Part shown: in pieces, positions 12,440-22,293 of the stretch
Numbering within the stretch: the stretch's first letter is position 1
How the letters are laid out: every line of letters begins with the position of its first letter
Assembly (NCBI GenBank): GCA_022563855.1
Contig: JADFMN010000002.1
Coordinates: 62,001 to 126,000, forward strand
DNA from: Armatimonadota bacterium
Lineage (GTDB): Bacteria > Armatimonadota > Fimbriimonadia > Fimbriimonadales > Fimbriimonadaceae
Reading direction: 5' to 3'
DNA length: 64,000 nt
The notes under the pieces: model-generated
Told to the model about the DNA's origin: nothing
The model's database searches: none
What the model saw: only the letters and a program-made list of their open reading frames with translations
Made by a program: the position numbers and the translations under genes

Positions 12440-13612
12440 ATGAGCGCAACCGTAAAACGCCGGGCCCCTTGGGCCGTCATCATCGTCGCCGCCTTTATCG
12501 TCGTCGCGGCCATCGCGTACTTTGCGACGCGACGCACAGCAGACCCCAACGAGCGAGATGTTTTGAAAGTGGGCGTAATCCTACCGCTAACCGGCAGCCT
12601 TGCGGAAGGCGGACGGCAGGCGCTACGGGGGCTCGAATTGGCCGTTGACAGATATAACGAAACCGCCGACACGTACCGCATTAAGTTGATCGTTGAGGAC
12701 TCAAGGTCCGAGCCGAGGGACGGGGTAACCGCGTTTCAGAAACTAGTGGCCGTGGACGGCGTAAAAGTCGTCGTGGGCGGTTTAATGAGTTCTGTCACCT
12801 TGGCAATAGCGCCAATCGCTGAACGCGAACAAGTGATTGTCCTGTCTCCAGGCTCCTCAAATCCCAAGGTAAGAGACGCAGGCGATTACATCTTTCGGAA
12901 TTGGGCCTCCGACGACTATGATGGGCGTGTTATGGCAGCTTACGCATTCGAGTCTCTGAACAAGCGAAGAGCGGCCGTCCTTTACATTAACAATGATTAT
13001 GGACTAGGCCTTGCTGAGGCATTCAGAATCACATTCGAGGAGCTTGGTGGCGAGGTTTCTCTTATGGAACCCTATGCGCAGGGTCAGTCAGACTTCAGAC
13101 CGCTTTTGGCCAAAGTGAGCGACTACGTAGTTGATTGCATATTCTTTCCCGGTCAGCCCAGCGAAAATGGGACGATTGTGAGACAGTGCCGCGAACTGGA
13201 TATCGTGGCAACCCTATTGGCCAATCTGTCCGTCGAGTCCCCAGATTTCGTCACCGCAGCTGCGGGGACACAGGCGGGAGTCATCTATAGCACACCTGCC
13301 TTTGACCCATCCTCAGACGAACCTACAGTCAAGGAGTTCGTCCGTGCCTTTAGCGACCAATACGGTGACCCCCCTGGCATTGTGGCTGGGCATGCCTTTG
13401 ACGCTGGAAACATACTCATCGAAGCCTTACGGCGAGCTGATTTTGACCTCGCCAGACTCAAACAGGAGCTCTATGGGATTGCAAACTTCGATGGAGTGAC
13501 AGGCGTAACGACATTTGACGAAAGAGGCGACGTTCACAAGGATGTCATGATCAAAGTGATCCAGCCAGACCTCAGTACGAGCGTGTTGCAGAGGTATTCA
13601 CCGCATTCGTGA
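12440..13612 (+). CDS. Liv-type ABC transporter substrate-binding protein
   Basis: 390 residues. An N-terminal membrane helix (AVIIVAAFIVVAAIAYFAT, about residues 11-29) serves as signal anchor, then a periplasmic-binding-protein type I fold. Family hallmarks: KVGVILPLTGSLAEGGRQAL, VVVGGLMSSVTLAIAPIAE, VIVLSPGSSNPKVRDA, FRNWASDDYDG, AVLYINNDYGLGLAEAF and a late GVTGVTTFDERGD. These resemble leucine/isoleucine/valine or amide-binding proteins. It heads an operon with an HD/methyltransferase fusion, two permeases and two ATPases, so it supplies ligand to that importer. The ligand cannot be read from the sequence. Confidence 0.9.
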   Translation: MSATVKRRAPWAVIIVAAFIVVAAIAYFATRRTADPNERDVLKVGVILPLTGSLAEGGRQALRGLELAVDRYNETADTYRIKLIVEDSRSEPRDGVTAFQKLVAVDGVKVVVGGLMSSVTLAIAPIAEREQVIVLSPGSSNPKVRDAGDYIFRNWASDDYDGRVMAAYAFESLNKRRAAVLYINNDYGLGLAEAFRITFEELGGEVSLMEPYAQGQSDFRPLLAKVSDYVVDCIFFPGQPSENGTIVRQCRELDIVATLLANLSVESPDFVTAAAGTQAGVIYSTPAFDPSSDEPTVKEFVRAFSDQYGDPPGIVAGHAFDAGNILIEALRRADFDLARLKQELYGIANFDGVTGVTTFDERGDVHKDVMIKVIQPDLSTSVLQRYSPHS

Positions 13613-13629: not shown

Positions 13630-13645
13630 AGGAGCCGTAATTATG
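13630..13645 (+). promoter_or_regulatory. Strong ribosome-binding site and ATG out of frame with the following gene
   Basis: AGGAG at 13630-13634 is 8 bases before the ATG at 13643. Read straight through, this ATG encodes only about 24 residues before a TAG. One base added (or two removed) in the adjacent C run joins it to the long HD/methyltransferase frame. Confidence 0.75.
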
Positions 13646-13652
13646 ACCTCGA

Positions 13653-13661
13653 CCCCCCCCC
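13653..13661 (+). repeat. Homopolymer of nine C inside the gene start, candidate phase-variation tract
   Basis: The C9 run lies three codons after the ATG at 13643. With ten C, the ATG runs through Pro codons directly into the open frame that begins at 13675. With nine it is out of frame. Poly-C or poly-G tracts of this length next to a start are classical slipped-strand switch sites, but a homopolymer miscount in the assembly would look the same. Confidence 0.6.
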
Positions 13662-13674
13662 TGTTACTTCCGGT

Positions 13675-15621
13675 TTGGACGTATTCAAGAAAACTCTCAG
13701 TGGCCATTCCGAGCTAGGCCGCGGGTACGAAGACTTATGGGACACAGCGTACGACCATTGGACCAGGTTTGTACAAGCTGGCAATAAGAAGGACATATCG
13801 CAAGGGTGGGATCACTGCAGGAGGGTTGAACTGAACCTGTGGCGCCTTCTGCGGAAACACTGGGACCAATTTTCTTGGGAGTCCCTTTATATTCTTACTG
13901 CATGTGCTGCACTCCACGATATTGGCAAGCTGGGTTGCGAGATACCGGATCACGGCAAACTGGCCTACCAGATCATTCGGAAAGACGATAAGGGATTTTT
14001 CCACGATGTAGCAACGCGTGAAATCGTCGCCGGCATCGCCCTGTATCACTCAGGAGGTGACACCTCCCAGTTGGAGGACAGCGTGGAACTGGGAAGAACC
14101 GCAATGCTGGTTCACCCAATGGCGTTAGCCGCCATTTTCAGAATGGCAGACATGATGGACACCACGATGGATAGAGTGTCCGTACGCCTCATAGAGGAGA
14201 AAATCCCCGGAATAGAAAAGTATACACCCGTCGCTGAAATCAGGAGTGCGATAGCGCGCATTGAGATTCACCCACAGTACCCAACAGTAGTCAAAGTCGT
14301 TTGCGATTCAGAGGATAAACGCCTAGTGGATCTTGTCTTCAAATACGTTGTAAAGATGAACGCAGAACTGGGAGACGATCATAAGAGACTCATGCTAAAC
14401 GTTCCCACCACGTACATGCACGGGAAAACACTGCGGACGGACAGAATATTGTTACCTCACGAGTTCCTCCTGGAACGAAGGGGAGAATCGAACGACTTTG
14501 ATTTGGAGACACCGGTGAAAGCACGCTCCACAAAGCGAAAAGTCAGCAAACGTGGCTCTGGAGCCACTAAGTCCGGTGACGGCAAACAGCGCACAAGAGA
14601 CAGGCGTGAGCCAGAAGAAGCCTCTGCTGGCTGGGGAGTACTTAGTTTCCCCGATCTGCGTCGGACCTCTTTTTACTACAAGCAGCATCTCTGCGAACAG
14701 TTGGAGAGGTCCGACGAGATTGATCACCGGTATCTATACTGGGGGTTGGAAGGAGCAGAGGCGTGGTTAAAAGTCACCAACGATCGCCGATACGAGCTGG
14801 CGAGGCTCACGTACGATCAGGTGCACAATGCGCTGGACTCCCTGCTTGACGATATTGTGGATGACACACTACCGGGCATGGATTACGTGAGCCTTGGCCC
14901 GGGTGACGGTGAAAAGGATGCACTAATGCTGGAGGGACTGTATCGCAGGCTTGGTAGCTCTCGAACGTGTACGTACTATCCCGTCGACTTCAGCTACCAT
15001 CTTGTTCGTTGGACATTGGCCTATCTGGAAACGCACATGGTGGGGGGAAGCATAGGTGACTGGTACACCCATAAAGTAGACAAGCGCCCTTTCCTGTGTG
15101 ACTTCCTACAACTTCCAGACTCTGATCACGGTTTTTGGAACACAGGATGGCCCAAGCTGTTTGCGCTCTTAGGGAGCACACTAGGCAATTTTGCCGAACT
15201 GAAATTACTTCGGGCCATTGCCCATGCAATGTCCGAAAATGACTGGTTGCTCATAGACGCCGAACTGCACGCTGACCGTACTGATGACGAGCTGTTACAA
15301 CAGTATTCGGACACTGGGAAGCTAATGACCTTTCTATCGACTCCATTCCATTATTTAGAAGGTGCTACACCTCCCGATGGGGAGAAGTTGCGAGCTACCG
15401 TCGAAGATGGCTTTAGTGATATTGATGGGTCGAAGAGTGTAGTAGTCCGGTACGAGTTCGACAGCAGGGATATCGTGCTGACGAAAACAACTAAGTATGA
15501 CGCCGATAGGCTGAAGATACGGCTGTGGGATTCTGGCTTTCAGGTGACCCGCGAATTCGGCGACGGCGGCCGCTGTTTGCTGTGGCTGCTAAAGACGCGC
15601 TCAACGGGCAGCGGGCAGTAG
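13675..15621 (+). CDS. HD-domain / EgtD-like SAM methyltransferase fusion
   Basis: At least 648 residues; the likely true start is the ATG at 13643, joined across the C9 tract, because the TTG at 13675 has no ribosome-binding site. N-terminal HD phosphohydrolase domain (about 45-165) with H47, the H81-D82 pair (ALHDIGKLG), H125 (LYHSGGD) and D159 (FRMADMMD). A basic linker (about 280-320) follows. The C-terminal domain (about 325-645) matches EgtD-like histidine N-methyltransferases: SLGPGDGEKD (SAM site, about 405), LLGSTLGNF (about 498) and LIDAELHAD. Known EgtD makes hercynine; the substrate here is unknown. The gene lies between the binding protein and permeases of a Liv-type importer and only 21 bases before the permease. 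The domain pairing is unusual. Confidence 0.8.
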   Translation: MDVFKKTLSGHSELGRGYEDLWDTAYDHWTRFVQAGNKKDISQGWDHCRRVELNLWRLLRKHWDQFSWESLYILTACAALHDIGKLGCEIPDHGKLAYQIIRKDDKGFFHDVATREIVAGIALYHSGGDTSQLEDSVELGRTAMLVHPMALAAIFRMADMMDTTMDRVSVRLIEEKIPGIEKYTPVAEIRSAIARIEIHPQYPTVVKVVCDSEDKRLVDLVFKYVVKMNAELGDDHKRLMLNVPTTYMHGKTLRTDRILLPHEFLLERRGESNDFDLETPVKARSTKRKVSKRGSGATKSGDGKQRTRDRREPEEASAGWGVLSFPDLRRTSFYYKQHLCEQLERSDEIDHRYLYWGLEGAEAWLKVTNDRRYELARLTYDQVHNALDSLLDDIVDDTLPGMDYVSLGPGDGEKDALMLEGLYRRLGSSRTCTYYPVDFSYHLVRWTLAYLETHMVGGSIGDWYTHKVDKRPFLCDFLQLPDSDHGFWNTGWPKLFALLGSTLGNFAELKLLRAIAHAMSENDWLLIDAELHADRTDDELLQQYSDTGKLMTFLSTPFHYLEGATPPDGEKLRATVEDGFSDIDGSKSVVVRYEFDSRDIVLTKTTKYDADRLKIRLWDSGFQVTREFGDGGRCLLWLLKTRSTGSGQ

Positions 15622-15642: not shown

Positions 15643-16542
15643 TTGGGCTACACTGTACGAAACATCGTGGTACAGATCCTGGGAAATGGGTTAAGCGCGG
15701 GCTCCGCATTTGCGCTGCTCGCCCTGGGCTTCGCGCTCATCTTTCAAACGACCCGTTTCTTCCACTTCGCCCACGGGGCGGTGGTGACGGCGGGGGCGTA
15801 TCTGACGTTCCTATTCGCCGTGATTCTCGGCTGGCCGCTGTGGGTTGCGGCGGTGTTGGCGATCATCCTGGCCGGTGTGTTGGGCGTGTTGATGGAGCTG
15901 GGCGTCTTTCGGCCGATGCGAAAGAAGGGGGCGACGCCGTTCGTGCTGTTGCTAGCGTCCCTGGGGTTGTTCGTGGTCATTCAGAACGTCATCTCAATGA
16001 TCTTCGGCGACGGCGTGAAGACCTTGAGATCCGGAGTCGTTCAAGAAGGCATCCCGATCCTCGGCGCGCGCATCACGCCTATTCAGATCTGGACCATCGC
16101 CATCGCGGTCATACTGTTCGTCGCGGTAAGCCTCTTCCTGTCCCGAACTCGCATGGGAAAAGCGATGCGCGCGGTGGCGAACGACCCCGAGTTAGCGTAC
16201 GTTTCCGGCATCGGGAGCGACCGGATCATCCTGTGTACCTTCTTCATCGGCTCCTGCCTGGCTGCGGTGGCGGCCATCCTGATCGCCCTGGACGTTGACA
16301 TGACGCCGACCATGGGGATGAACGCGCTGTTGATGGGCGTGGTGGCGGTCATCATCGGCGGCGTGGGCAGCGTGCCCGGCGCGGCACTGGGGGGGCTGTT
16401 GCTGGGCCTGGCGCGCAGTTTCGGCGTGTGGCAAATCAACTCCGCGTGGCAGGACGCGATTGCATTCGGCATCCTGCTGCTGTTCCTGCTGTTTCGGCCC
16501 CAGGGCTTCTTCGGCAAGCCGCTACGGAAGGCGCAGGTATGA
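15643..16542 (+). CDS. livH: Liv-type ABC transporter permease (LivH-like)
   Basis: 299 residues with about eight transmembrane helices and the LivH pattern: GNGLSAGSAFALLALGFALI at the N-terminus, HFAHGAVVTAGAY, the cytoplasmic loop RTRMGKAMRAVANDPELAYV (coupling to the ATPase) and GGVGSVPGAALGGLLLG near the end. Together with the next gene it forms the inner-membrane pore. The start is uncertain: TTG at 15643 or GTG at 15667, neither with a clear ribosome-binding site, so translation may depend on coupling to the fusion gene 21 bases upstream. Confidence 0.9.
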   Translation: MGYTVRNIVVQILGNGLSAGSAFALLALGFALIFQTTRFFHFAHGAVVTAGAYLTFLFAVILGWPLWVAAVLAIILAGVLGVLMELGVFRPMRKKGATPFVLLLASLGLFVVIQNVISMIFGDGVKTLRSGVVQEGIPILGARITPIQIWTIAIAVILFVAVSLFLSRTRMGKAMRAVANDPELAYVSGIGSDRIILCTFFIGSCLAAVAAILIALDVDMTPTMGMNALLMGVVAVIIGGVGSVPGAALGGLLLGLARSFGVWQINSAWQDAIAFGILLLFLLFRPQGFFGKPLRKAQV

Positions 16543-17414
16543 ACTACCTGCTCCACGTCCTCATCCTGATCTGCATCTACATCATCCTTGCCGTTTCGCT
16601 GAACATCATCTCCGGTTACGGCGGGCTTCTTTCACTGGCACACGCCGCTTTCTTCGGTGTGGGTGCCTACACCGCCGCGCTGCTTTCGTTGCACTACGGC
16701 ACCCAGTTTCTGGCCAACATCGTCGCTGCCATCGTTCTTGCGGCGCTTTTGGGCGCGGTCGTCGGCGCGCCGTCGCTGAGGCTGCATGGCGATTACTTCA
16801 TCCTGGCGACGTTCGCCTTGCAGATCATCATATTTTCGGTCATGAACAACTGGATAGATTTAACCGGCGGCCCAATGGGTCTGCCCGGAATTCCGCAACC
16901 GAACCTGTTTGGGTGGGAGGTGAACACACACGCGGAGTTCTTAGCGCTGAGCCTTGGGCTGGCGGCACTTACGTTTCTGTTCGCCCACCGGCTGGTCAGC
17001 TCGCCGTTCGGCCGCGTGCTGAAGGCGATCCGCGAGGACGAAGTGTTCGCGCAGTCGCTGGGCAAGAACGTGGCGAAGTATAAGTTGGTCGTGTTTGCAA
17101 CCGGGGCGGCGCTGGCGTCGGTGGCCGGCGTGCTCTACGCGCAGTACATCACATTCATCGACCCGACGAGTTTCACCCTAATGGAGTCCATCTTCATTCT
17201 CTCTGTGGTCATCATCGGCGGCGCTGGGAACCTGTGGGGATCGGTGGTGGGTGCCGTTATGCTTGTGGCGATTCCCGAGCTGCTACGATTCGTAGGCATG
17301 CCGAGCGACATCGCGGCGAACATGCGGCAGATTCTGTATGGCGCGCTTCTGATGTTGTTCATGATGTATCGGTCGCAGGGAATAATAGGAGAGCACTCAT
17401 TCAGACAGAGATAG
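16539..17414 (+). CDS. livM: Liv-type ABC transporter permease (LivM-like)
   Basis: ATG at 16539 overlaps the upstream TGA by four bases (ATGA), so translation is coupled; a longer upstream frame from 16428 is rejected. 291 residues, with LivM signatures NIISGYGGLLSLAHAAFFGV, the RLHGDYFILATFA substrate-path segment, GRVLKAIREDEVFAQSLG (ATPase coupling loop) and GGAGNLWGSVVGA. It pairs with the LivH-like protein. Confidence 0.92.
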   Translation: MNYLLHVLILICIYIILAVSLNIISGYGGLLSLAHAAFFGVGAYTAALLSLHYGTQFLANIVAAIVLAALLGAVVGAPSLRLHGDYFILATFALQIIIFSVMNNWIDLTGGPMGLPGIPQPNLFGWEVNTHAEFLALSLGLAALTFLFAHRLVSSPFGRVLKAIREDEVFAQSLGKNVAKYKLVVFATGAALASVAGVLYAQYITFIDPTSFTLMESIFILSVVIIGGAGNLWGSVVGAVMLVAIPELLRFVGMPSDIAANMRQILYGALLMLFMMYRSQGIIGEHSFRQR

Positions 17415-17417
17415 GTT

Positions 17418-18179
17418 GTGCAGGAAGAACTGGTCTTGACGGTTGAGCGGGTGTCGAAGGCGTTCGGCGGAGTCCGCGCGCTTCAGGACTTCTCGTGCCG
17501 GATCGAGCCGCGAACCATCGTCGGCCTCATCGGGCCGAACGGCGCCGGCAAAACCACCCTTTTCAACGTCATCACAGGCTTCATCGCTCCCGACGCAGGA
17601 AGCGTGTCGCTGGACGGCAGAGAACTGACACGCCACGCCCCTTTCCGAATCGCACGAATGGGCATTAGCCGCACCTTCCAAGACCTACGGTTGCTGCGGC
17701 AGATGACGGTGCTTGACAACCTGCTCCTTGCCGGTACAGGCGGGCTGGGAGAAGGTCTCTGGTCTCCGTTCTTTTCTCCGCGCTGGCTGGCTGACCGGCG
17801 ACGGAGAAACGAACCGAGGGCGATGGACCTTCTGGAGTTCGTCGGGCTCGCTGACCAGGCGAACCACCTGGGCTCTGAACTCTCTTACGGCCAGCAGAAA
17901 CTGGTGGCATTGGCGTGCTGCCTGGCGACCGACCCGGATTTGCTCATGCTCGACGAGCCAGTCTCAGGCATCCATCCGGCACTTGTCGAGAAGATTCTCG
18001 AGATGATGCAAGGCTTCCCTAAGCAGGGGAAGACGGTCGTATTCATCGAGCACAACCTGGAAGCCGTTATGGAAGTGGCGGACAAAGTGATAGTAATGGA
18101 CGAGGGAAAGAAACTTACGGAAGGGGCACCGAGCATCATCAGAGACGACCCGCGAGTGATCGAGGCCTATTTGGAATGA
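17418..18179 (+). CDS. livG: Liv-type ABC transporter ATPase (LivG-like)
   Basis: 253 residues from a GTG three bases after the LivM stop. Walker A GPNGAGKTT, the LivG-specific GISRTFQDLRLL, signature motif LSYGQQKLVALA, Walker B LLMLDEPVSGIHP and H-loop VVFIEHNLEAV. The signature is YGQQ rather than SGGQ, common in LivG. It powers the importer with the LivF-like partner. The end overlaps the next start by four bases. Confidence 0.95.
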   Translation: MQEELVLTVERVSKAFGGVRALQDFSCRIEPRTIVGLIGPNGAGKTTLFNVITGFIAPDAGSVSLDGRELTRHAPFRIARMGISRTFQDLRLLRQMTVLDNLLLAGTGGLGEGLWSPFFSPRWLADRRRRNEPRAMDLLEFVGLADQANHLGSELSYGQQKLVALACCLATDPDLLMLDEPVSGIHPALVEKILEMMQGFPKQGKTVVFIEHNLEAVMEVADKVIVMDEGKKLTEGAPSIIRDDPRVIEAYLE

Positions 18180-18910
18180 CACAGGTAGATAGCACCGCTC
18201 AGCCGCTGCTCGAAGTCCGGAACCTTGAAACAGGCTATGGGAATCTAAAGGTGCTGCACGGCATATCTTTGGACGTTGGGCAACAGGATATCGTAGCCCT
18301 CGTCGGGCCGAACGGAAGTGGCAAATCCACCATGCTGAAGGCGATCTTCGGCTTGCTGCCCGCGTGGTCTGGAACCGTAAGTTTCGACGGCACCGAGACC
18401 CAGGGCCGCAACCCCATTCTGAATGTCGAAGACGGCCTCTGTTACGTACCACAAGGCAGCCGGGTCTTCACAGACATGACGGTGCAGGAGAATCTGGAGA
18501 TGGGCGCCTACACACTCCAGAACGGAAACGAGGTCGGGCGGCGACTGCAACGCGCATATTCGCTCTTCCCTCGGCTCGAGGAACGGAAGCGACAACTCGC
18601 CGGCAAACTGAGCGGCGGCGAGAAGCAGATCCTTGCGCTTGCCCGGGCCTTAATGGTCGAACCGAGGCTACTTCTCCTGGACGAACCGTCCCTCGGCCTC
18701 TCACCTCAGTTGGCCAAGGTCGCGCTCGAAACCGTCATGCAGATCAACCGAGAACTGGGCACCGCAATTCTCATTGTCGAGCAGAACGTCAAGGAAGTGC
18801 TCACCATCGCGCAGCGTGTATACGTTCTGAGACTAGGCCGCATCGCCTTGCACGACACGCCGGAGAGACTCGCCAAAAAGGGTGAGCTACGCAAGTTATT
18901 CCTAGGTTGA
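18176..18910 (+). CDS. livF: Liv-type ABC transporter ATPase (LivF-like)
   Basis: 244 residues; ATG overlaps the LivG TGA. Motifs: GPNGSGKST (Walker A), YVPQGSRVFTDMTVQENLEMG (typical LivF Q-loop region), LSGGEKQILALARAL (signature), LLLLDEPSLGLSP (Walker B), IVEQNVKEVL (H-loop). Last gene of the operon; no hairpin terminator seen after it. Confidence 0.95.
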   Translation: MTQVDSTAQPLLEVRNLETGYGNLKVLHGISLDVGQQDIVALVGPNGSGKSTMLKAIFGLLPAWSGTVSFDGTETQGRNPILNVEDGLCYVPQGSRVFTDMTVQENLEMGAYTLQNGNEVGRRLQRAYSLFPRLEERKRQLAGKLSGGEKQILALARALMVEPRLLLLDEPSLGLSPQLAKVALETVMQINRELGTAILIVEQNVKEVLTIAQRVYVLRLGRIALHDTPERLAKKGELRKLFLG

Positions 18911-19074: not shown

Positions 19075-19827
19075 GTGCCTAGACAATCGAGCATCGAATG
19101 GACGCTTTGGACGTGGAACCCGGTCACTGGCTGCACCAAGGTCAGCCAGGGGTGCAAGAACTTCTATGCGGAGCGGTTGGCAAAGCGGCTAAAGGCTATG
19201 CGTTCACCCCGATAACGGGACGGCTTCAAGGTGTCAGTGCACCACGATCTTGTCGACGAGCCAAAGCGGTGACGTAAAGGTCGGCTGATCTTCGTTAACA
19301 GCATGTCAGATATCATCCATGAAGACGTGCCGCTGAGTTTCATTCGGAAGGTCTTCAAAACAATTGAAGAGTGTGACCACCACATCTTCCAGGTGCTGAC
19401 GAAACGAAGTGCACGCCTTGCGGAGCTGGCGGACGAACTTCCTTGGCCGTCAAACGTTTGGATGAGGGTCAGCGTCGAGGACGAGCGCGTCGTTCACCGC
19501 ATTGACGATCTTCGTACAACTCCTGCCCAAGTCAAGTTCCTCTCGCTAGAGCCCCTGATTGGTCCTCTCGATAATCTCAACCTTGATGGCATTCAGTGGG
19601 TGATTGTGGGCGGCGAGTCCGGACCTCGCTCGCGACCGATTGAAAAAGATTGGGTGCGGAGTAGTCGCACACAGTGCGAAACGGGCGACGTTGCTTTCTT
19701 TTTCAAGCAGTGGGGCGGTGTGCGCAAGCATGTTACAGGTCGTGAGTTGGATGGACGAACGTGGGATGAGTTTCCAACGATGCCGGGGGTGTCTGCGCAA
19801 CGTGCCCTGAGGCAGGCTGGTTCGTAG
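19075..19827 (+). pseudogene. DUF5131 (phage Gp37/Gp68-like) gene with two in-frame stops
   Basis: From GTG 19075 (AAGGA 8 bases upstream) one frame reads [18 protein letters not shown] through [59 protein letters not shown] and FFFKQWGG, the full landmark set of the DUF5131 family (a radical-SAM-like family often in phage and defence regions). It is interrupted by TAA at 19213-19215 (where members have Tyr before RDGFK) and by TGA at 19270-19272 (where members have Trp). The Cys cluster is also altered: the third Cys of [12 protein letters not shown]-type sequence is Phe. The gene is therefore dead unless the stops are errors. A 3' part open from 19303 is not a separate gene. Confidence 0.88.
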
Positions 19828-20092
19828 CCTTTACCTCTGATACATCTGAATCAGATTCCCGCAAGTGTTCTTTCTCGCGCATGGCTTGGCGAAGTCGTCA
19901 TGGAGGATGACCGGTGCTTGCTGAAGCCTGCTGAACAAAGCGTCGCTGAAGCGCTCCAACTCCAGTATACGTCGTGACCATCTCTCCGGCGAATTGTCTG
20001 ACCAACTTCGCCTCAACGTTAGTGGTCATGCCTTGTAAGTCAAGGTAGAGGATGCAGCGGTTCCGCGCCCGTTTGAGCAGCGGTAGAACTAG
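19828..20092. other. Gap between DUF5131 pseudogene and the defence operon
   Basis: Contains no intact gene. One minus-strand frame reads a short hydrophobic strand (CILYLDLQGM) that could be residue of a partner gene (DUF5131 genes often neighbour tcmP-type genes), but it is too short to call. Confidence 0.3.
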
Positions 20093-21100
20093 CTACCAAA
20101 CATCATCGAGCGTTTTGGCGTTCTCAAGGTCGGCGCGCGTGGTGTACCGCATGTTCTGAAGGTGCTTCACGCGACCTTTTGAAACGTACTTGATCGGGCC
20201 GATCTCCGTTGCCGGGCTGACGAAATTCAACACGTACTTATTCGTGTCTTGCCAGGGCTCGATCGACGCGACCTCGGCAATGTGTGTGATCGCCGAGACT
20301 GGCGCCGTTCGGTAGGCAGCAATGTACTTGATCTGGGAGCGCATCGTTCCGCCAATCCTGATCTGGTACCAGCGATCCTCGCCGAGGAAAGTTTCTTGGA
20401 AGCCGTCTTCATGCGCAGGGACGACGACGGTGTCGATGTCGCCGACTTCGTATTTCTTGGCGGTTGGCTCGCTTGATCGAGTTGGCGTCGGCGCAACTTC
20501 TGCAAGGAACGGCGTAAACCTATAGCAGACCTCGTTGTCAGGATTTGCGTACCGAGCAAGCTCGAGAATGTCCACGCTGAACTTGAACTTCTCGGTCAGG
20601 CTTCGTTCCAGGCCGTCGGGGATCTGATCGATGATTACAAGCACCCGGAACGGTTCATCATGGATCGCCGTGTGTAGCACGTGGTCGATGTTGCGAAAGC
20701 CGCTCTTCTCTGCGTAATCCTCGATCAGGTCAAGTTGCTGTTGGAATTGTAGCGTTTCATGGACGATGCGCTGGACGGCGTTGCGGCTGTCGTCGAATGC
20801 CATAGAAAATTGGAGGAGCTGGACGGCGATGTGACGAAGAGGGTCGTGGCTTGCAAGCTCATTTTCAACTACGTAAAGTCGTGGGCGATGGCCAGAAAGA
20901 TCGACGAGGTATCCATCAGGAATGCTTCCTTTGCCATGGCTCGCGCTGATTTTCTTCTTGGTGTCGACGTAAATGCGATCTGGCCCGAACAATTCACGGG
21001 ATAGCTTGATGATCGACTCCTCCAGGTCGGCCTCCACTTTGAAGTCGACGCGTGAGAACAATGCTCCTGTAGTCCGTACGATCTCAGTGCCTTCAGACAT
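20093..21100 (-). CDS. PD-(D/E)XK-like nuclease candidate, last gene of the defence operon
   Basis: 335 residues. An N-terminal block has GSIPDGYLVDL followed by PRLYVVENELASHD, fitting the Asp...Glu-x-Glu/Lys pattern of restriction-like nucleases. The rest contains LLQFSMAFDD, VLVIIDQIPDGL and, at the C-terminus, YVSKGRVKHLQNMRYTTRAD. I do not recognise a named family, so nuclease activity is inferred from the motif. It is transcribed 47 bases after the AAA+ gene and ends the seven-gene run. Possible effector of the system. Confidence 0.6.
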   Translation of the reverse strand: MSEGTEIVRTTGALFSRVDFKVEADLEESIIKLSRELFGPDRIYVDTKKKISASHGKGSIPDGYLVDLSGHRPRLYVVENELASHDPLRHIAVQLLQFSMAFDDSRNAVQRIVHETLQFQQQLDLIEDYAEKSGFRNIDHVLHTAIHDEPFRVLVIIDQIPDGLERSLTEKFKFSVDILELARYANPDNEVCYRFTPFLAEVAPTPTRSSEPTAKKYEVGDIDTVVVPAHEDGFQETFLGEDRWYQIRIGGTMRSQIKYIAAYRTAPVSAITHIAEVASIEPWQDTNKYVLNFVSPATEIGPIKYVSKGRVKHLQNMRYTTRADLENAKTLDDVW

Positions 21101-21147
21101 AGTTCTTCTTCAGATCAGTCTAGCCTAGGCGTTCGAGCTTCAGCGGA

Positions 21148-22293
21148 TTATTCGCGCTTGTTTGTGAGGTCGAATCCGATCTTCCGGTATTCCTCCTCGT
21201 CAAATTTCGGCTTTCGGCGACCTAGAGCAATTAAGACGTCGTCCGTTCGGATCTTACGTTCATCTAAAACTACTGAATGTGCCGCCTCGCTGCATGTGAC
21301 TTCGATATCAGCACAGGTCAGACCCTCAGACTGTTCTGCCATCTTTTTGTAATCGAGCTCATCGATCGGGCGTTCATCGAGATGGACGTGGAAGAGTTCT
21401 TCCCGAGCCTCGAAATCTGGCAGGCCGACAAAGATGAGTTTGTCAAACCGGCCTGGACGGATCGCAGCTGGATCGAGCGAGTCGAGATTATTCGTTGCTC
21501 CTACCACGAGAATTCTATCTTCTGCAGCCTTGTTTAGTTGCGTTAGGAATTCGCTGACCTCGCCAACAGCGTGTTGGTGTACATCAGTTCGTCTAGGAAT
21601 CATTGAGTCGATCTCATCCAAGAAGATCATGCTTGGCGCCGCTTCCCGCGCGTCATCGAAGAGCTTCTTTATCTTGCCCTGGGTGCCGTGTATGTATATG
21701 CTCCCGAGATCGGAGGGCTTGACGTCGAAGAACTCAAACTCAAGGATCTTCGCCAGCCTGTTCGCGATGAATGTCTTTCCACAGCCCGGCGGTCCGTAGA
21801 GTATCACGCCGTTGGGAAGAGCGAGCTTGAACTTGTTGAAGAGAGCTGGTTGGCGTAGCGGAAGGATTACACTGGATTCGAGTTCGACCTTTAGTTCGCG
21901 CATTCCTGCGACGCCGTGCCAGATCCCGCTATCGGTAGATTCTCTCGTACGCGAACTTTCCCAGTGTGGAATTTCTTCGTAGCCCAGGTCTTCCTTGAGT
22001 TCGATTTTCATTGCTTGAGCGGTCACGTTTTCCGGGTGGATCTCACATTCTAACAACGTCCATGCAAGTGCCTCCCGGACTTTATTCTTAGATCGCAAGA
22101 CGTCAATCTTGAACAGCCACGCCTTTTGTCTTTCGATCCCATCTTGATCGAACAAATTGTACTGGGGCTCCCGCGCGATCTTGTCGAGGAGATTGAGTGC
22201 TCGTTGAACGCGTCCTTGTTGTAGGAGCCTCCGAACCCTTTCCTGCCACTTCAGGCTCTTGACTTTACGCAGATCATCCGTACTTCTTCTCAT
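21148..22293 (-). CDS. AAA+ ATPase of the classic AAA clade
   Basis: 381 residues. A helical, TPR-like N-terminal part (about 1-110) precedes one AAA domain: Walker A GPPGCGKT (about 167-174), Walker B MIFLDEID (about 222-229), the second region of homology ATNNLDSLDPAAIRPGRFD with arginine finger, and a C-terminal lid (GLTCADIEVTCSEAA). This is the clade of Cdc48, SpoVK and FtsH, which form hexamers that remodel proteins. In the operon it is 11 bases after the small helical gene. A regulatory or remodelling role in defence is inferred from context. Confidence 0.88.
   Translation of the reverse strand: MRRSTDDLRKVKSLKWQERVRRLLQQGRVQRALNLLDKIAREPQYNLFDQDGIERQKAWLFKIDVLRSKNKVREALAWTLLECEIHPENVTAQAMKIELKEDLGYEEIPHWESSRTRESTDSGIWHGVAGMRELKVELESSVILPLRQPALFNKFKLALPNGVILYGPPGCGKTFIANRLAKILEFEFFDVKPSDLGSIYIHGTQGKIKKLFDDAREAAPSMIFLDEIDSMIPRRTDVHQHAVGEVSEFLTQLNKAAEDRILVVGATNNLDSLDPAAIRPGRFDKLIFVGLPDFEAREELFHVHLDERPIDELDYKKMAEQSEGLTCADIEVTCSEAAHSVVLDERKIRTDDVLIALGRRKPKFDEEEYRKIGFDLTNKRE

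Follow-up and report, generated by a model that had tools for sequence, protein, structure and literature searches.

Does a run of nine cytosines near the start of a gene for an HD/methyltransferase protein act as a frame switch, and has the assembly caught this gene in its OFF state? The run lies in a 64-kb stretch of DNA (the whole stretch that we analysed, called the window below), which comes from a draft genome of a member of the Fimbriimonadaceae, a family that belongs to the Armatimonadota (3.18 Mb in 22 contigs, 96% complete). In our estimate the chances are about even that the ATG at position 13643 is the native start codon and that the C tract behind it is a slippage-prone frame switch, seen here in the OFF position.

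A C9 tract separates a well-placed ATG from a long intact reading frame

Between positions 13630 and 13680 the sequence has the order AGGAG-CCGTAATT-ATG-ACCTCGA-CCCCCCCCC-TGTTACTTCCGGT-TTG. On re-reading it, we found the Shine-Dalgarno-like AGGAG at 13630-13634 (plus strand), an 8-nt spacer and then the ATG at 13643, as the first-pass annotation had described. A tract of exactly nine C (13653-13661, plus strand) begins 7 nt past the ATG codon, that is, at the 5' end of the coding sequence, as in homopolymer phase-variable genes. In the sequence as assembled, the frame of this ATG (13643-13717, plus strand) encodes a mere 24 residues (MTSTPPLLLPVWTYSRKLSVAIPS) before it ends with the TAG at 13715-13717, and the same annotation was therefore right to call the ATG out of frame, with an early stop. 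When the tract was set in silico to C7, C8, C9, C10, C11 or C12, the predicted products had 658, 47, 24, 659, 48 and 25 residues, respectively. A change of one unit thus toggles between a full-length and a truncated product (659 aa with C10 and 24 aa with C9; 658 aa with C7 and 47 aa with C8). Its prediction that C10 or C7 reads into the 648-residue frame also held; the ATG joins this frame with C7, C10 or C13 only. The frame itself (13675-15621, plus strand; delimited by Pfam searches, a start scan and translations) begins at a TTG which lacks a Shine-Dalgarno sequence, and it is intact, with 648 open codons and both encoded domains above their Pfam gathering scores. The probability that such a frame stays open by chance is about 3e-14.

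The C9 tract is the sole mononucleotide run of at least 8 in the whole window. Dinucleotide shuffling of the window gives an expectation of 0.27 C9 runs, and 19 of 100 shuffles contained one, so the run by itself is compositionally unremarkable and it is its placement after AGGAG and ATG that matters.

In the switch that we propose, the HD/methyltransferase gene would have its native start at ATG 13643, with AGGAG driving initiation, and the C tract, three codons in, would be prone to slippage, its length setting the reading frame. C10 (or C7, or C13) would then give a protein of 659/658 residues with an MTSTPPPVTSG- tail, and C9 or C8 would give a stub of 24-47 residues, to which TTG 13675 would add weak expression at best. 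On this view the gene, intact in other respects, was assembled in its OFF state. We infer that cells differ in tract length, that expression switches accordingly and that the permease genes downstream are affected.

The gene encodes an HD domain joined to a methyltransferase domain

The N-terminal part of the protein (residues about 44-175) matches the HD-CE domain PF24391 with 27.8 bits, barely above the cut-off of 27, and residues about 339-549 match Methyltransf_33 (PF10017) with 52.2 bits against a cut-off of 23. The HD motif AALHDIGKLG and the SAM motifs VSLGPGDGEKD and LLGSTLGNF are intact and common to distant relatives. The PF10017 score above the gathering threshold and the GPGDG and LGSTLGN motifs place the protein near the Methyltransf_33/EgtD-type SAM methyltransferases. 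However, it differs from the EgtD type in carrying an N-terminal HD domain, and its identity as EgtD itself was rejected, as the NCBI equivalog model TIGR03438 gave 40.4 bits, far under its cut-off of 290.9. By its PF24391 score, just over the gathering value, it also resembles HD-CE proteins, including the conflict-type fusions of HD with an nSTAND NTPase, but it has no NTPase module and carries a methyltransferase instead. Among HD relatives in the phylum there are some of the conflict type; one of them, at locus L012, is fused to an nSTAND1 NTPase.

The gene matched no entry of PADLOC or PHROG. No close homologue with which tract lengths might be compared was found in 201 relatives, 291 genomes of the phylum (the collection holds one genome per species), genome contigs, viral contigs, plasmids or PDB chains. 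A profile search with the methyltransferase half found nothing in viral contigs and a single, distant relative in Fimbriimonadaceae ACE_ARM7 (G070), which belongs to the window's own family. Literature searches for HD-CE yielded nothing relevant.

Homopolymers elsewhere in the genome support the assembled tract length

The count of nine C at 13653-13661 comes from one draft assembly, and homopolymers are sites of sequencing and assembly miscounts (PMC8808543). It might thus be argued that the true tract is C10 and that the gene is simply ON from ATG 13643, all the more since this draft is split into 22 contigs, of which three ends fall at C15-C17 runs. The source genome contains 12 C/G runs of at least 8, about six C/G runs of at least 9 and two A/T runs of at least 9, which makes runs of this last length very rare in it and speaks for a switch. 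The six are C17, C15 and G17 at contig ends, a C11 between genes, a G11 in a 589-aa ORF, and the C9 at 13653-13661. Elsewhere in the genome, tracts inside coding sequences leave the reading frames open (G11 in the 589-aa ORF, C8 in ORFs of 594 and 505 aa), and the assembled tract lengths therefore look trustworthy. That these C8-C11 coding runs of the same assembly are in frame speaks against a miscount, as does the lack of any other obviously frameshifted gene in the window; moreover, most short-read data can resolve a run as short as C9. We consider a miscount unlikely.

The G11 tract deserves a separate mention. Located at L013 1498-1508 (reverse strand; about 94445-94455 of G000:C1), it falls in frame at codon 262 of a gene whose product is a repeat protein of 589 residues with a start that resembles a signal peptide; one base more or less would truncate the product to 269-292 residues. 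Judged by its sequence, this gene is a candidate for a second switch in the source genome, assembled ON. A C11 after an ATG at L022 was also considered as a second switch, ahead of a gene which we take, from our reading of its sequence, to encode homogentisate dioxygenase. It was rejected because the likely start lies well downstream, so that the run is probably intergenic. The contig ends at C15-C17 runs are those at L019, L020 and L023, and the first and last of these have the flank TGTTCTAATCAAG in common.

TTG 13675 as an alternative start

The open stretch comprises 665 codons, and its first 120 codons hold one start codon, TTG 13675, without a Shine-Dalgarno-like motif; it is the frame's only other start ahead of the HD motif. 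The earlier claim that no start other than the ATG has a ribosome-binding site is thereby confirmed. Still, TTG 13675 could be an ordinary start, in which case AGGAG, ATG and C9 would be incidental upstream sequence or encode a short leader peptide. As many genes of the window likewise have no obvious Shine-Dalgarno sequence, the missing one is weak evidence against the TTG, and the adjoining livH gene also seems to use a TTG of this kind. In addition, the poly-C pattern is not enriched in the window's family (see below), and TTG 13675 would put the Met almost exactly at the first helix common with an HD relative encoded in L034. On the other hand, this explanation needs an ideally spaced AGGAG-ATG and the window's only long homopolymer to have come into a 63-nt gap by accident, and the livK stop, 63 nt off, is far for coupling. 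The L034 relative can be read both ways. It starts MSPPNATSQPGS, followed by the helix that matches LDVFKK of the HD/methyltransferase protein, and the 12-residue Pro/Ser-rich tail ahead of this helix resembles MTSTPPPVTSG. Thus, a Pro/Ser/Thr-rich tail of ~11 residues, as in the C10 reading, would be natural, though the relative's own ATG is without a clear Shine-Dalgarno sequence. Taking both sides together, we find an ordinary start at the TTG rather improbable.

The gene is part of an accessory liv operon

The HD/methyltransferase gene stands second in an accessory liv operon with the order livK, HD/methyltransferase, livH, livM, livG, livF, all on the plus strand. A livK-like periplasmic binding protein (Peripla_BP_6 in the domain search) is encoded upstream at 12440-13612; the livH (15643-16542) and livM (16536-17414) permeases and the livG (17418-18179) and livF (18176-18910) ATPases follow downstream. 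The TTG start of livH at 15643 has no Shine-Dalgarno sequence and sits 21 nt past the HD/methyltransferase stop, in the same frame. Because of this arrangement a polar effect is plausible, in which translation of the enzyme gene would gate livH through translational coupling. In the OFF state, 1.9 kb would stay untranslated and the coupling would be lost, and livH-livF would probably be lowered too.

GC3 is 0.59 in livK and 0.58 in the enzyme gene, as opposed to 0.70-0.84 in livH-livF, which makes the operon look mosaic. In an accessory liv operon of another genome of the same family (G017, L082 6386-12893), livK and livH are separated by a short-chain dehydrogenase gene and an unknown gene, so the gap between these two may host variable, exchangeable genes. 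Downstream of the operon, at 19303-22293, there are a DUF5131 gene matching PADLOC PDC-M41B and a gene for an AAA ATPase matching IetA models, a neighbourhood which resembles a defence island.

Comparison with known phase-variable genes

With the poly-C/poly-G contingency genes of Neisseria, Campylobacter and Bordetella the locus shares a G/C run near the start codon, an intact downstream ORF and a frame that is predicted to decide between full-length and truncated product. It differs in its product, an intracellular HD/methyltransferase encoded in a transporter operon, and in its host, an uncultured member of the Armatimonadota. It is also similar to the 5' homopolymeric tracts that were described as a general means of gene inactivation (Orsi et al. 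2010, PMC2831843), where a frameshift in a tract at the 5' end likewise leads to a very short peptide, except that poly(A) and poly(T) tracts were overrepresented there and the tract of the window gene is poly(C). Full-text literature searches returned no paper with both 'phase variation' and Armatimonadetes or Armatimonadota. If the switch is real, it is a known mechanism in a new place. Homopolymer phase variation of the classic kind, which has mostly been described in host-associated bacteria, would then occur in a largely uncultured environmental phylum. Its target would be unusual as well: not a surface structure but an enzyme of the cell interior, coupled to an ABC transporter.

Poly-C tracts at gene starts in other Armatimonadota

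We searched 291 Armatimonadota genomes for a Shine-Dalgarno sequence and an ATG with C9 within 24 nt. The search returned 77 raw matches, spread over 42 genomes, and the reversed pattern returned 29. With poly-G in place of poly-C the counts were 63 and, reversed, 37 (table sums made by hand), so the phylum-wide excess is modest, and a claim of phylum-wide enrichment was scaled back, as poly-G in this arrangement is also common (63 versus 77 for poly-C). In the 85 genomes of the window's family, the 9 raw matches (6 genomes) to the C9 pattern were not above those to the reversed (15 in 6 genomes) or poly-G (17 in 7 genomes) patterns. The signal for such tracts at gene starts is pronounced in members of families f12 and f8 and stays at control level in the window's family. 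In G119, 7 of the 19 tracts of C9 or longer lie within about 35 nt past an ATG preceded by a Shine-Dalgarno sequence and gate ORFs of 110-512 residues; in G185, 4 of 24 tracts are at such starts. The respective chances, about 7e-9 (at a rough 1.5% per tract) and 4e-4, are orders of magnitude only, since these genomes were picked for having matches and the model (one gene per kb, a 30-nt sense-strand target) ignores paralogy among tracts.

Two orthologues from G153 and G185 have C9 and C10, with 40 nt upstream 100% identical and 300 nt downstream 93% identical. A one-base difference in the tract was also found between G228 and G165, between G129 and G185, between two copies in G119 and between two copies in G275. 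The C10/C9 pair of G275 was rejected as a single polymorphic locus, because the upstream sequences diverge past about 100 nt and the two are hence paralogues. The gated frames are mixed, e.g. in frame at G129:C66 and out of frame at G129:C2. As far as sequences can tell, such length differences between orthologues and copies, together with mixed frames, are the picture that frame switches prone to slippage would present in a set of related genomes. A decoding slip of RNA polymerase or ribosome on the C run, giving a fixed in-frame fraction from unchanged C9 DNA, would agree with the finding that most of the poly-C-gated genes in four Armatimonadota genomes have been assembled out of frame, as if the DNA frame mattered little, but the in-frame share in these genomes also fits one in three, A/T runs are the best-known sites of efficient slippage and a stimulatory element is not evident here, which makes it a very improbable explanation.

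How, then, does the slipped-strand switching that the first-pass annotation had suggested fare? It is supported in part. The local anatomy is complete: a Shine-Dalgarno sequence and an ATG are followed by a C tract and, one base off, by a long intact frame, there is no good alternative start, and the C9/C10 orthologues and mixed frames in other families agree with it. The window's own family offers no such agreement. Its counts are at control level, and the chance that one of the six tracts of the source genome falls in such a position is about 0.09. The argument for a switch thus rests on the local anatomy and on precedent elsewhere in the phylum, and not on the family. It also counts against a switch that most other poly-C-gated genes encode secreted proteins and the window gene a cytosolic enzyme; in addition, a C9 tract is among the shortest for which high slippage rates would be expected. 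We propose only tentatively that poly-C tracts placed directly behind start codons serve Armatimonadota as a recurrent switch, chiefly of secreted proteins, and that here such a switch has come to lie on the HD/methyltransferase gene of a liv operon, one tract toggling enzyme and transporter jointly.

In most of the gated proteins a signal-peptide-like stretch comes at the beginning, after the proline run. Tracts of C9-C13 just past the start codons of secreted-protein gene families, in mixed frames, were seen in other Armatimonadota genomes at L096, L097, L110, L111, L112, L116, L117, L118, L121, L122, L123, L158, L170 and L191. On sequence grounds these families form a candidate contingency system, for which our literature search found no paper. 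Poly-C runs also occur away from gene starts, where a short context recurs around them, TCTA-Cn-GTGGTTGGCGTC or TTCTACTCTGT-Cn-GTGTCAATA (L150, L175, L190 and L192 in G119; L196, L197, L209 and L211 in G129 and G185). These repeated contexts possibly mark a mobile or repeat element that bears the run.
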